This document shows positions 4,383-35,364 of a DNA stretch of 57,186 bases, one piece after another. The first letter of the stretch is position 1; every line of letters begins with the position of its first letter. The stretch lies in the IMG/VR virus record IMGVR_UViG_3300044970_001263, positions 1 to 57,186 of that record; one strand, 5' to 3'. The notes under the pieces are model-generated. The model saw nothing but the letters and a program-made list of their open reading frames with translations. It had not been told where the DNA came from and did not search any database. The DNA is from a virus. The position numbers were made by a program, and so were the translations under genes.

Positions 4383-4734
4383 TCTCAGAATCTCCTCTCT
4401 CCCCTATCAGAGCGGCGGGGAGCCGCATCAGAGAGGGGATCCCTCTCCGATAAGAGAAGCATACCACAAAAGCAGAGAGCGCAACTCTGCGAATCCCGCA
4501 ACAGCCCACGAGGGGAGACCTGCGGAATCCGCAAGAATCAGCCAGAATCCTGCGATATCCGCAGAATGCGCCCCCCCTCCGCTACGCTCCACAGCCAGCG
4601 CGGGGGACCCTATTTAGTACCTAGAGGAAATATACACAGAATCCCAAATATTATATAAGAAGAAACTTATACTGTAACACACCACATGTCTTTGCAAGAC
4701 CGTGCGCAAAGACGCAAAAATAAAAAAACGCCAA

Positions 4735-29577: not shown

Positions 29578-30306
29578 ATGAAAAACATCACATTTACCTC
29601 AAGGTATGATGTTCAGAAAGAATACTACCCACGACCTTCATCCCAGAACCTACCAGAGTGGTATGTAAAACTTCAGTCTTACGGAGGCTTCGGCAGCCAA
29701 AGGGATCAAGGGCTTTTTAAGAAGAGTGTACTTCGCGGTAGTACTGACCCAAACGCAACCATTAAAAAGTGCGTCCCAGTTCTTGATGCAATGACTGCTG
29801 GGTATCTTCTTGTTACACCAGCAGATATTTGGGTAGAAATGGCGGACGGAGAAAGCGACCAGACCTTTAGCACACGGGGTTTTTTCAAGGTAAGCGGTCA
29901 TGACTACGGTCAAGCATCTGGAAACCCATATGTCAAGTCCGATAAAATTATCCCTAAGTTGAATAATCCATGGGGGATAAAAACACCTTCTGGTTACTCA
30001 GTTCTGATTACTGCTCCAATGCATAGCGATAATGGATACTTTACTTGCCTTCCTGCAGTAGTTGATACTGACACTTATACGGCAGAAATCAATTTTCCTT
30101 TTGTTCTAAATGACCCTAACTTTACTGGTCTCATCCCTGCTGGAACTCCAATGGTTCAAGTTATTCCCTTTAAACGTGATTCTTGGGAGATGAAGATTGG
30201 CTCAGAAAAAGATTTAGAGAATATTAAGAAAACATCCGATAAGCACCTTACTAAAATCTTTAATTCCTACAAGACTCAGTTCTGGTCCAAGAAGGAGTTC
30301 AAATAA
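29578..30306 (+). CDS. Conserved tail-cluster protein of unknown function (242 aa)
   Basis: Features a WGIKTPSGYSVLITAPMH segment, a VVDTDTYTAEINFPF segment and GTPMVQVIPFKRDSW. These match a phage family of unknown role that occurs among fibre genes. No signal or membrane segment. Lower GC than neighbours. It might process or decorate fibres. Confidence 0.6.
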   Translation: MKNITFTSRYDVQKEYYPRPSSQNLPEWYVKLQSYGGFGSQRDQGLFKKSVLRGSTDPNATIKKCVPVLDAMTAGYLLVTPADIWVEMADGESDQTFSTRGFFKVSGHDYGQASGNPYVKSDKIIPKLNNPWGIKTPSGYSVLITAPMHSDNGYFTCLPAVVDTDTYTAEINFPFVLNDPNFTGLIPAGTPMVQVIPFKRDSWEMKIGSEKDLENIKKTSDKHLTKIFNSYKTQFWSKKEFK

Positions 30307-30309
30307 CAT

Positions 30310-31659
30310 ATGGCAAACATTATCAAGTTGCGACGAGATACTGCTACAGCGTGGTCATCTGTTAACCCTGTCCTCGCTAATGGCGAGATGGGGCTAGATA
30401 CCACGAACGACAAAATCAAAATCGGCGACGGCTCGAGCACTTGGTCCGCATTGCCATATGCTTTTGATACTCCTTCAGAGGTGACAACAAAAGCAACCAA
30501 CGCTCAGGCTGCTGCAGAGTCTACTGCCGCAGGCGCTCTTACGGCGCACGAGGGCGATGTTTCAACGCACGGCGTTGGCGTTGTTGTCGGCACTTCAGAA
30601 TCTCAAACCCTAACAAACAAGACCATTGACGGAAACAGCAATACCCTTACTGTTCTGAATAGTCAGACAACGGCTACTTCATCAAGCACTGCCAGCGCTA
30701 TTGTGTCAAGGGATTCAAGTGGCAACACTGCCATCAATCAGGTCACTCTTGGCGCTGACCCGACAGACGCGATGCACGCCGCGACAAAGCAGTACACAGA
30801 CAACCTTGCATCTGGTCTTCACGCTGCTCCATCGGTTCTTGCTGCAACAACCGCGAACCTTTCTGCTACCTACCTCAACGGCACTCTCGGAGTAGGGGCG
30901 ACTCTGACGAGCACGTCAAATGGCGCGTTTCCAGGTGTAGATGGCGTAACAACTGGCTGGACCCAATACAAGGGAATACTTGTCAAGAATCAAAGCAGTT
31001 CCTTCCAGAATGGTCGATACTTCCTATCCACTGTAGGAAATGGATCTACCCCTTGGGTTCTAACGAGGTGTCCTTTCTGCGATGAGGCAGACGAGATCCC
31101 TGGTTCTTATATCTTTGTACAAGAAGGAACCGCCAACGCTGGCAAGGGTTTTGTCGGGCTAGTGGGGGATGCGACTACATTCGTTGTCGGCACAGACGCT
31201 ATTACATACACCCAATTTACATCCTCTTCGTCTATTAGCGCAACTGCCCCTTTGGATCTGACGGATAACGTCTTGACCATTGCAGCGGCAACCACCTCTG
31301 TTCCTGGGTCAATGAGCGCAGCAGATAAGACGAAGCTCGATGCGCTCGAAATGCCTATCTCGTTTCACATTGCTGGAACGCTTAGTGCTGGAGTCAAGCA
31401 GCCTAGGTTTATCTCGCCAATTGCCTGTACCCTTGTGAATGCTCGAGCGTACGCTGGAGGTGGGTCTGGTGTGACATACCGACTTGTAAAAAATGGATCT
31501 ACAAACTCAAACACAAGCGGAACAGTTGGAAACTCTGTTGTGACCACTTCTCTTTCCACAGTCACATCGCTGGCTGTTGGAGACACACTTCAAGTGGAAA
31601 TTGTTAGCGCTGGAACATCTGGTGCAGACCTTTCCGTAACCGTGGAGGCTACCTACTAA
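30310..31659 (+). CDS. Tail fibre with Mtd-like N-terminal domain (449 aa)
   Basis: Residues 1-50 (IIKLRRDTATAWSSVNPVLANGEMGLDTTNDKIKIGDGSSTW) are the major tropism determinant N-terminal domain. Then LTNKTIDGNSN repeats, an ATKQYTDNLASG helix-turn and a GILVKNQSSSFQNGRYFL domain. No reverse transcriptase or template repeat is present, so it is not a diversity-generating target here. Confidence 0.75.
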   Translation: MANIIKLRRDTATAWSSVNPVLANGEMGLDTTNDKIKIGDGSSTWSALPYAFDTPSEVTTKATNAQAAAESTAAGALTAHEGDVSTHGVGVVVGTSESQTLTNKTIDGNSNTLTVLNSQTTATSSSTASAIVSRDSSGNTAINQVTLGADPTDAMHAATKQYTDNLASGLHAAPSVLAATTANLSATYLNGTLGVGATLTSTSNGAFPGVDGVTTGWTQYKGILVKNQSSSFQNGRYFLSTVGNGSTPWVLTRCPFCDEADEIPGSYIFVQEGTANAGKGFVGLVGDATTFVVGTDAITYTQFTSSSSISATAPLDLTDNVLTIAAATTSVPGSMSAADKTKLDALEMPISFHIAGTLSAGVKQPRFISPIACTLVNARAYAGGGSGVTYRLVKNGSTNSNTSGTVGNSVVTTSLSTVTSLAVGDTLQVEIVSAGTSGADLSVTVEATY

Positions 31660-32855
31660 TGCCCATTACAGTTTCTGATACGTTTACTCGTGCAAATACA
31701 TCTGTTGGTACACTGGGATCTACAGAAACTGGGCAAGTCCTTGCATGGCAAAATGCTGTGGACTGGCAAATCAGTGGAAACGTAGCCCAAAATGATGGCA
31801 CAACAGCCTCACCAGCTTGGGTGCGTAACGAAGTTGCAAATGCCACAGTCTCCATGGAGACCCTAAATGGCAATGGACCTGGCATTGCATTCTGGGTAAA
31901 AGACTCTACAAATTTCTGGATGACATGGCTACGATCAAACAGGTACGTTGCTAGTACATCAGTAACATGCAATTCTTGTTCTGATTGCGCATGCGGAGGT
32001 TGCAACGTCTCTGGATATACAGGGTGTAGCAAAAGTTCGAGCACGGCGCTAGCCCAGTCATTCAGTGGGTGCGGAGCATGTTCTGCTGGATCATGCACTA
32101 CAGCAAGCCATTCGTGTGGAAATAGCGGAAACGGAACTTTTTCATTGTTCACATATGCAGTTTGTGGTGCTGGCTGCACTAATAGGAGAACGTGTAGCAG
32201 AGGCTGCAATGGAGCGAATGCCTGTGGCTCAGTTAGCTGTAACGCTTATAGCTGTTCAACATCTTGCAGCACAGCAAATGCAAACAACAGATGCGGAAGC
32301 AGTCCTCTTTGCGGAAGTTACTCTAGTACTCAATGCGGTTCATCTTGCGGGTCTACTGGCAGATCAAACCGAAACTGTTCAGCAGTTTGTAGCGGATGCA
32401 CTGAAACATATAATGCTGCGGATTCCTGCAGTGGCGGTGGTGGATCTAGTATCAACAGTGAGGCATGCCAAAACTGTGGATATACTACAAGCACAAACTA
32501 CGACTACGACTATTATCTGCGTGTAGATCGGGTAGTAAATGGTACTGCAACAAACGTTGTAAACCAGTTCTATGCCGATCTTGGTAGTAGTAGTGGATTC
32601 TTCGCAGCGATGCGTGTAATAACCAGCGGGAACACATATCGAGTTCAGGGGTACAGTGATACTGGCTTTGCGACCTCAGTATCCGATACTGGTGTTCTTA
32701 CTGATGCAAACAACTCACACCTTCTTGCCGTTGGGCATGGTATTGTGGTTGGCGCTCTAGGATCTGCAAGTCCAGGTTCTGGAAACCAAGTTGACAATTT
32801 CACTTTAGAGTTTGAGCCGCTTGGCGGTGATAGCGTTGGAATTATTACAGGATAG
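31659..32855 (+). CDS. Cysteine-rich fibre/adhesin with a lectin-like sandwich (398 aa)
   Basis: Residues 1-100 (SDTFTRANTSVGTLGSTETGQ, GIAFWVKDSTNFWMTW) and 280-398 (YYLRVDRVVNG to VDNFTLEFEPL) form one LamG/concanavalin-like beta-sandwich. Between them residues 104-273 contain 28 cysteines (about one in six) among Ser, Gly and Asn, with none elsewhere in the protein. This looks like an inserted disulfide-rich loop at the tip of the sandwich. It is the last fibre gene, and a thioredoxin-like gene follows 12 bases later. Likely receptor-binding. Confidence 0.75.
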   Translation: MPITVSDTFTRANTSVGTLGSTETGQVLAWQNAVDWQISGNVAQNDGTTASPAWVRNEVANATVSMETLNGNGPGIAFWVKDSTNFWMTWLRSNRYVASTSVTCNSCSDCACGGCNVSGYTGCSKSSSTALAQSFSGCGACSAGSCTTASHSCGNSGNGTFSLFTYAVCGAGCTNRRTCSRGCNGANACGSVSCNAYSCSTSCSTANANNRCGSSPLCGSYSSTQCGSSCGSTGRSNRNCSAVCSGCTETYNAADSCSGGGGSSINSEACQNCGYTTSTNYDYDYYLRVDRVVNGTATNVVNQFYADLGSSSGFFAAMRVITSGNTYRVQGYSDTGFATSVSDTGVLTDANNSHLLAVGHGIVVGALGSASPGSGNQVDNFTLEFEPLGGDSVGIITG

Positions 32856-32867
32856 GAGAGGTAAAAG

Positions 32868-33527
32868 ATGCCTAAGAAAAATGATGCGTGGAAAAAACTA
32901 ATTCAGGAACATTCTGATAGCCCCGTGTTGTATTATTTCAGCACGGAAGATTGTCCATTCTGCGTTCGGGCAAAGCCATATATCGATGTCCTTGCCGAAA
33001 AATATGAAAAGCTTGGTCTTAAAGTTGTTAAGGTTGATGTCGATTCTGAGCCAGACATTATTAGTGCTGCAAATGTCGACCAATGGCCTTCATACATTTT
33101 TGTTGAAGATGGCGAGCCAAAAGCTAAGGACGTTGGATGGGAAGAGGGTCAGCGCGTTTGGCTAGAAGAGCGCCTTGGTCTTGATAAGCGATTTGGTTTG
33201 CTTGCTGGACTGGCTCTAAGCCAAGAAGAAATGGATGCAATCAAGGAAGACCCTAATGCAAAAGTCGGTGGCGTTGCCAGTGATGAATATGCAAACCCAT
33301 CCTCTAACAAGAATGGCTGTGGAGATTCCACACAGCAAGTAGCAGAGATCGCCGCTGGTATGGATGAGGCGCTGACCAAGATCGACAACAAACTTCGCTC
33401 TATCCTTGCTCGCCTTGATGCGATCGAGTCGCGCTTTGCGCCGCTGTCTGATGACATCATGGCAGCAGTGGGCGCAAAGCCAGAGACTGGTAGCAAGTGC
33501 AAGTGCGGTAAGCACAAGGAGGACTGA
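32868..33527 (+). CDS. Thioredoxin-like protein with extended C-terminus (219 aa)
   Basis: Thioredoxin fold at residues 15-105, with active site CPFC (29-32) and cis-Pro loop QWPS (about 72-75). Residues 106-219 are a charged helical extension (MDEALTKIDNKLRSILARLDAIESRF coiled coil) ending in CKCGKH. No signal peptide, so it acts in the cytoplasm. Its place right after the 28-Cys fibre suggests it handles that protein's disulfides. A general redox role is the alternative. Confidence 0.8.
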   Translation: MPKKNDAWKKLIQEHSDSPVLYYFSTEDCPFCVRAKPYIDVLAEKYEKLGLKVVKVDVDSEPDIISAANVDQWPSYIFVEDGEPKAKDVGWEEGQRVWLEERLGLDKRFGLLAGLALSQEEMDAIKEDPNAKVGGVASDEYANPSSNKNGCGDSTQQVAEIAAGMDEALTKIDNKLRSILARLDAIESRFAPLSDDIMAAVGAKPETGSKCKCGKHKED

Positions 33528-33528
33528 C

Positions 33529-33753
33529 ATGTCCTCTAAGCCTTGGGATCTACTAAACCCGAACATCGGTCGAGTCTCTGATGAGGTGCTTGAGCAGCGT
33601 CTCGCTATCTGTAAGGGCTGTGAGTTCTTCATTAAACTGTCGAAGCAGTGTAAGAAATGCGGCTGCTTCATGCGGCTTAAAGGCTCCCTCCCACATTCGG
33701 AATGTCCTGTGGGGAAGTGGGGAAAGGTAAAGGACGACAATGGCTCCATCTGA
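33529..33753 (+). CDS. Small Cys-rich zinc-binding protein (74 aa)
   Basis: Starts MSSKPWDLLNPNIGRVS after AGGAGG. Residues 27-55 hold CKGCEFF, CKKCGCF and SECPVGKW, a four- to six-Cys zinc cluster. Near-identical small proteins (SSKPWDL and ICxGCxFF followed by CKKCGCFM) recur in freshwater and marine phages beside lysis genes. Function unknown. Confidence 0.8.
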   Translation: MSSKPWDLLNPNIGRVSDEVLEQRLAICKGCEFFIKLSKQCKKCGCFMRLKGSLPHSECPVGKWGKVKDDNGSI

Positions 33754-34182: not shown

Positions 34183-34203
34183 CCATACCCTGAGGAGGTG
34201 CGT

Positions 34204-35364
34204 ATGAACCGACTCAGAGTTACTATAGTAACCACGATTATCTTTACCGCCGCGTTTACTGCGGCACTATTCTCCGCTACGCCAGTCAAGGGGCTGGACG
34301 ATGCGGATACTTGGGATCAGCAGATTGATGCCAATGGCACGATCACGCTGGAAGAAGGCTCCATTGTAATCGACGGGTCAAATTATCCGTTGCCAGGGCA
34401 GCCTACGCAGAATACCTCAACGCAAATCACCACCATTGTATTGGATGGTGAGACAGTCACCTTTGACTGGTCTTATTTCACCACCGACGGCGCGTTCTTT
34501 GACAAGCCGCAGGTGCTCTGGAACGGCGAGTGGTACAACCTCGTTGAGGGAAATGCGCAGAGTGGAAATGGAACGATGACTGGGTATATCGCCGCTGGCG
34601 GTCTATTCGGGTTTAGAGTTCTGTCCACAGATTCCTGCTGTGGCGTAGGGACGCTTACGATTACGAATACCTCTTGGATTGTCGGACCTCCGCCAACTCC
34701 AGAGCCAACTCCTGAACCAAGCCCAGAACCAACCCCGACTCCTGAGCCGACACCAGAGCCAACTCCTGAGCCGACCCCTGAGCCAACGCCTACCCCAACC
34801 GTAGAGCCAACGCCAACTCCGACTCCAGAGCCTACGCCTGAGCCTACGCCAGAGCCGACGCTGCCGCCAACGCCAGAGCCAACTGTAGAGCCAACGCCTG
34901 AGCCGACACCGACTCCAGAGCCAACGCCACAGCCAACTCCAGCGCCAAGTCCGCAGCCAAGCGAGGAGCCGTCAATTGAACCAACACCGAACCCGACTGC
35001 CACACCCGAGCCGTCGCCCGAAGCGACCGCTTCGCCCGTTCCTGTGGTATCTCCTGATCCCACTAGCGTTCCTTCTCCTGAGCCAGAACAGCCCACTCTG
35101 CCGTCTCCCGTAGAGGCAATTGGTGCGGCTGCTGAGGCAGTAGGAGAGGCTGTCGCTGCGGTCGGCGAGACCATTGGTGCAGCAGTTGAAACCGTTACCA
35201 ATCTCGGCAAGGATCTCTCTCCAGTTGAGAGGGAGAAGGCTCGTGAAGCCGTACTGCCAGCAATCATTGTCACTCAGGTGGCGCAGGCTGCAGTCGGAAT
35301 GGCTATGGCTGCACTCGGCAATACACCTTCAGGTGGCAGCAGCACGACAAGGAGCCGTAAGTGA
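34204..35364 (+). CDS. Membrane-anchored Pro/Thr/Glu-repeat surface protein (386 aa)
   Basis: ATG 6 bases after GAGGAGG. Signal-type segment at residues 7-31 ([20 protein letters not shown]), a beta-rich domain (35-160), then about 130 residues of PTPEP/PEPTP repeats with SPSP variants, a helical region and a hydrophobic C-terminal stretch ([20 protein letters not shown]). The repeat would span the cell wall. Next to holin-like and lysin genes it may act as a spanin-like or wall-anchored lysis factor. Similar repeats are frequent in Chloroflexota and Actinobacteriota surface proteins. Confidence 0.7.

Follow-up and report, generated by a model that had tools for sequence, protein, structure and literature searches.

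What is the product of a gene in a phage tail-fibre module in which 28 cysteines are packed into one segment in the middle of the protein, and how might such a segment be held together and used? We addressed this question in the window, by which we mean the whole 57,186-nucleotide stretch analysed (IMG/VR record IMGVR_UViG_3300044970_001263), a 57-kb record of an uncultured virus with terminase, minor tail, collar, fibre-repeat, and Mtd_N fibre genes. The gene in question (positions 31659..32855, plus strand) encodes P0001, a putative fibre-tip protein of 398 residues, recognized from its ORF and translation and from homologues in IMG/VR contigs. Its cysteines are residues 104, 107, 110, 112, 115, 123, 138, 141, 146, 153, 169, 173, 179, 183, 189, 194, 199, 203, 212, 218, 226, 230, 240, 244, 247, 257, 270, and 273. 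The insert that they delimit (residues 104-273, 31968..32477, plus strand), which we propose to be a disulfide knob, is rich in Ser, Gly, Ala, Asn, and Thr, and 28 of its 170 residues (16.5%) are cysteines, versus none of the 228 residues in the flanks. The sequence-only reading that drew attention to the gene had placed all 28 cysteines between residues 104 and 273, and their count and positions in the translation agree with it. Its statement that the insert has no histidine was wrong (His-151 is present; two further histidines, His-354 and His-360, are in the C-terminal flank), which leaves the conclusion on disulfides reached below unaffected. The remaining tail-module genes of the window encode 0-3 cysteines each. 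The cysteine layout of P0001 cannot be put down to chance because over 100 related domains have it too. We also considered a frame artefact as the source of the cysteines and rejected it: the reverse frame is filled with stop codons, relatives retain the cysteines, and dN/dS is mostly below 0.4.

Fold of the flanks and distribution of the family

We modelled P0001 with AlphaFold2 using an alignment of 64 diverse family members (an alignment of five close homologues gave a pLDDT of 27). In this model, the two flanks come together as one concanavalin-like sandwich with pLDDT mostly above 90. The N-terminal half (residues 1-84, 31659..31910, plus strand) is cysteine-free, has pLDDT mostly above 90, ends with FWVKDSTNFW, and belongs to the match to PDB entry 8zdp (VIA-align Z 16.6); the C-terminal half (residues 294 to about 385, followed by a short tail and the stop codon; 32538..32855, plus strand) has pLDDT values of 82-97 over residues 294-390 and is likewise matched by VIA-align. 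The guess of the sequence-only reading that the flanks are two halves of a single LamG/concanavalin sandwich is therefore backed by both the model and the structure comparison. The structure prediction that it had proposed as a check on the bonds was informative for the flanks, but the insert was modelled at pLDDT below 50 over most of residues 113-253, so the model gives no bond pattern. According to DSSP, the insert is bordered by two long strands of 19-20 residues each, residues 85-104 (31911..31970, plus strand), which is the last sandwich strand toward the insert, and residues 275-293 (32481..32537, plus strand), which leads back into the sandwich. Given these lengths, the strands of the hairpin reach the edges of the insert, and they may form the up-strand and down-strand of a free-standing β-ribbon stalk.

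When solved structures were compared by VIA-align, the closest was the C-terminal domain of the Douge central fibre (Z 16.6, 2.7 Å, 168 residues), and Z scores of 12-17 were obtained with CBM66 (Z 16.0), GH43 C-terminal domains, galactocerebrosidase, and legume lectins. Foldseek gave weak matches in the PDB (best E 0.05), nearly all of them to jelly-roll lectin or carbohydrate-binding module (CBM) folds; among predicted viral structures, it matched uncharacterized proteins from uncultured Caudovirales, with identities reaching 45%, whereas minor tail proteins from phages of Arthrobacter, Streptomyces, and Gordonia matched less strongly. The two-sheet jelly roll of the ConA-like/LamG-type fold is thus seen in the modelled flanks and in their VIA-align matches. 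P0001 and the relatives scanned had no above-cut-off match in Pfam or NCBIfam, no PHROG matched the sandwich, and a comparison of P0001 with PDB sequences returned nothing useful. We therefore assign P0001 to this fold and not to a named sequence family.

The Douge domain (mycobacteriophage Douge gp20 CTD, PDB 8ZDP/8ZDQ) shares with P0001 both the sandwich fold and the position at the end of a tail fibre. It has a CBM fold, and the tip-CTD, produced recombinantly, binds glycans of the host surface (PMC13033339). However, the aligned identity is about 16%, and the matched segment (residues 690-878, 189 residues) has no room for a 170-residue insert. Similarly, Bacillus subtilis CBM66 (PDB 4B1M, 4AZZ; Z ~16) shares the fold but is compact (161-165 residues), insert-free, and non-viral, with 12% identity to P0001.

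Direct relatives of P0001 in IMG/VR have 60-68% identity, followed by a group at about 40% and then by more distant groups. We scanned for the family with a DNA pattern of the N-flank motif G-x-[AS]-F-W-V-x-[DN]-x-x-N, which does not require any cysteine, and obtained at least 119 stretches; profile searches of the collected DNA gave at least 117 complete domains, five of which have no insert (L173 and the group of L186, L224, L238, and L243). A tblastn search of a cultured-phage collection found no relative of the domain, and the query L128 matched Burkholderia phages only through a short N-terminal segment that is not part of the domain. Candidate family members on bacterial genome contigs were not confirmed. 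The open-access literature contained no description of such a family, although absence there is no proof of novelty. Judged from sequence, sandwich proteins with a cysteine insert are a large uncharacterized family in uncultured phages.

Several members depart from the common arrangement. In L186, L224, L238, and L243, the insert-free sandwich carries a long C-terminal tail instead (e.g. L186:3699-4301 and downstream), and the tails in L186 and L238 contain dozens of cysteines between long polyproline runs. The cysteine-rich gene at L020:7383-8497 is frame-broken past the insert, between 8261 and 8309, and in L147 and L148 (around 4426-4501) it is split into two ORFs, each encoding one half of the sandwich (N or C) in its own frame. 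In a distant sister group (L025, L029, L031, and L036), two cysteine-rich blocks of the insert are separated by long YNAxSYNAxT and GGNxKGGN repeats.

Gene neighbourhood and a thioredoxin-fold protein

The cysteine-rich gene lies in the tail-fibre module, downstream of the collar, fibre-repeat, and minor tail genes and directly beside a gene for a tail-fibre protein with an Mtd_N domain (30310..31659, plus strand; PF18454, E 6.5e-13; PHROG tail fibre 8745, E 2.9e-25). The Mtd_N fibre gene and the cysteine-rich gene share a single base, with which the stop codon of the former ends and the start codon of the latter begins, and the same gene order occurs in relatives. Upstream, at 29578-30306, the window encodes a DUF6065-like/phrog_7084 protein, diverged copies of which are found downstream of the cysteine-rich gene in L022, L025, L029, and L036.

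On the other side, after a gap of 12 bases, follows a gene for a thioredoxin-fold protein (32868..33527, plus strand; PF00085, E 6.7e-12) with a CPFC motif, later GCGD and CKC, and a helical C-terminal region. All nine aligned homologues of this protein have a CxxC motif (CPFC, CVFC, CSFC, CHFC, CKFC, CNYC, or CTFC). The gene comes after the cysteine-rich gene in every contig of the window clade that has downstream sequence, with an extra ORF between the two in L036 and L117; the one in L036 (6513-7172) is methyltransferase-like. Thioredoxin matches anywhere on the contig were found in 9/9 records of the window clade versus 4/40 other family contigs. We considered a thioredoxin-fold gene as a feature of the whole family and rejected it, the gene following the cysteine-rich gene only in the clade of the window; the wider family lacks such a neighbour and so does not generally require one. 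From its adjacency, the thioredoxin-fold protein is a candidate redox helper that may assist in folding or proof-reading the knob.

Two further genes lie downstream. The gene for a small DUF6171 protein with six cysteines (33529..33753, plus strand; PF19668, E 3.7e-8), which probably starts at 33529 rather than at 33406, often neighbours cysteine-rich fibre genes across the family, which we note as an association only. The protein encoded at 34198-35364 has many repeats of a 13-residue type and hydrophobic ends, and its N-terminal part is conserved in close relatives.

Pairing of the cysteines and variability of the insert

Among the matches listed, the number of cysteines in the insert was even in 60/60 clusters at 60% identity (0 to 50 cysteines; two clusters are cysteine-free, and all 58 that bear cysteines are even), in 94/94 clusters at 90% identity, and in 35/35 at 45%. 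When cysteines were counted over the whole domain, which involves no choice of boundary, 57/60 clusters were even (p 3e-14), the exceptions reflecting one flank cysteine; such p values are guides only because the clusters share ancestry. Shifting the boundaries mostly left 58-60 of 60 clusters even, and the number fell to 47/60 only when the first residues of the C-strand were removed. Ten other residue types counted in the same inserts displayed no parity bias (21-38 of 58 even). Across the family, cysteine makes up 9.6% of insert residues versus about 0% of flank residues, and in the nine clusters with mixed cysteine counts, the differences are always even. In the window clade (eight sequences), six cysteine columns are truly variable and form three perfectly matched pairs; a seventh difference, at 198/199, is an alignment shift. 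The pair 112/257 is present in the window, L020, L022, and L023 and absent in L001, L002, L003, and L005; 123/247 is absent only in L020, L022, and L023; and 179/194 is present in the window only. The cysteines are thus even in number and change in pairs, as in a disulfide-rich (knottin-like) module, and from parity and covariation, we infer that they form disulfides. The bonds suggested by covariation are only 112-257, 123-247, and 179-194, on a base of three pairs in eight sequences from few lineages. The first two are nested, which is the arrangement that zipping of the insert from the base would give.

The insert was also proposed in the sequence-only reading to be hypervariable, with an alignment of homologues as the check. 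Among the matches listed, the inserts of insert-bearing domains range in length from 77 to 392 residues and in cysteine count from 4 to 50, and the insert is less conserved than the flanks in 187/219 compared pairs. In the window clade, the identity is about 63-65% in the insert versus 66-75% in the flanks. For the pair L168/L273, the flanks have a dN of 0.003 and a dS of 0.054 and the insert has a dN of 0.34 and a dS of 0.89, with 17/18 cysteines kept; for L264/L273 and L194/L202, dN/dS is about 1 in the insert versus 0.16-0.22 in the flanks. Further, blastn homology breaks off and restarts within the insert in L168/L273, L231/L258, L262/L279, and L124/L166, and in the same four pairs the edges of the insert stay with the conserved side. 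This indicates that knob interiors are replaced as blocks, and between close relatives, the interior is replaced while stem and flanks are conserved. Hypervariability therefore holds at the level of the family, where interiors are swapped between near relatives, but within the window clade, the variability of the insert exceeds that of the flanks only moderately. A diversity-generating retroelement (DGR) as the source of variation is not supported for the window because it contains neither a reverse transcriptase (no RVT_1; the record may be incomplete) nor a second copy of the cysteine-rich gene usable as a template.

We weighed two other uses of the cysteines. They could bind metal, as zinc or iron-sulfur clusters, and so fold the knob; several CxxC motifs (CNSC, CQNC) look like halves of zinc sites, the cysteine count is divisible by four in 35/58 cysteine-bearing clusters, and the cytoplasm is reducing during assembly. 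However, in 23/58 clusters the count is not a multiple of four (6, 10, 14, 18, 22, 26, 34, 42, and 50 all occur), cysteines shift in twos and not in fours, histidine accounts for 0.5% of insert residues, and many cysteines stand alone within repeat units (e.g. in L260 and L132). Even parity together with paired gain and loss favours disulfides over metal sites, in agreement with the preference of the sequence-only reading for disulfides over zinc, and we give metal binding a slim chance. Disulfides could instead join subunits and thereby lock the fibre or the baseplate. Such a lock has a precedent in Agrobacterium phage Milano, where extensive disulfides link tail subunits, including receptor-binding proteins (PMC10811340). 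Even counts per chain would fit symmetric inter-chain pairs as well, parity being blind to the difference between intra- and inter-chain bonds. Against such a lock, the Milano bonds are few per protein and spread across many tail proteins, whereas here all cysteines are in one insert and the other tail proteins of the window have next to none, and the nesting of 112/257 and 123/247 is as expected within one chain. We consider an inter-subunit lock slightly less probable again than metal binding.

A different objection concedes a disulfide-braced insert but denies it any part in specificity: the knob would be a protective or spacer element, and the lectin face alone would bind the host. The ConA-like fold does bind sugars by itself in relatives such as Douge (PMC13033339), a few family members (L173 and the L186 group) manage without an insert, and the insert is only moderately variable in the clade of the window. 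On the other hand, nearly all members among the matches listed have the insert, and the block replacement and raised dN of the knob next to conserved flanks are expected of a specificity element and not of a spacer. We therefore regard a pure spacer as unlikely.

A proposed fibre-tip adhesin

We conclude that P0001 is probably a fibre-tip adhesin, in which a lectin sandwich carries a disulfide-braced variable knob on a β-ribbon stalk toward the host surface. In the mechanism we propose, the tip domain of a tail fibre would be a concanavalin-like (CBM66/LamG-type) sandwich broken at a single hairpin, whose strands would be drawn out into a β-ribbon stalk bearing the 170-residue knob. The knob would be held by fourteen disulfides, some or all of them nested (as 112-257 and 123-247 would be), and the insert would thus be zipped up from the base. 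Between the cysteines, residues would vary and pass from phage to phage in blocks, which would change the contact surface on a lasting framework of cysteines and sandwich. Contact with the host surface would be made by the knob, perhaps together with the lectin face. The disulfides may form in virions that have been released into oxic water, or the neighbouring thioredoxin-fold protein may help to close them. Both the receptor contact by the knob and the timing of oxidation are extrapolated from these features.

Part of this arrangement has counterparts elsewhere. The ultralong CDR-H3 of bovine antibodies is a β-ribbon stalk with a disulfide-rich variable knob (PMC8602281) and, like P0001, extends a loop of a β-sandwich into such a structure; the likeness is a functional analogy without homology. 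The antibody loop belongs to an Ig fold, the whole CDR measures 50-70 residues as opposed to an insert of 170 residues with 28 cysteines, and its diversification takes place in antibody genes, that of P0001 by phage evolution. Mtd and the tentaclins are variable receptor-binding proteins of phages that are diversified by DGRs (PMC10743442). They resemble the window in variable, tail-borne, lectin-type receptor binding, and an Mtd_N domain is present in the adjacent fibre, but they have a C-type lectin fold, not a ConA-like one, and the window has no reverse transcriptase or template copy. Milano shows that disulfides can be functional in the tail and receptor-binding proteins of a phage; its bonds, however, connect subunits in the sheath, tube, and baseplate, and it has no cysteine-rich insert.

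To our knowledge, few reports describe dense disulfide scaffolds in proteins that are synthesized in the cytoplasm of bacteria. The precedent we found in phage tails, Milano, concerns bonds between subunits, whereas here cysteine frameworks appear to hold hypervariable binding loops, in a family with no curated match and, by sequence, no cultured example. There is an even chance, in our estimation, that these proteins make up a widespread and undescribed class of phage adhesins, a phage counterpart of the stalk-and-knob loops of antibodies, in which a lectin sandwich bears a large knob scaffolded by up to ~25 disulfides, knobs are swapped as cassettes, and one lineage has a dedicated thioredoxin-fold folding gene. 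This would offer a testable answer to how recognition is varied without a DGR in such phages, prompts one to ask at what point, and through what agent, disulfides close in a phage virion, and would make the family a natural library of disulfide-knob scaffolds.
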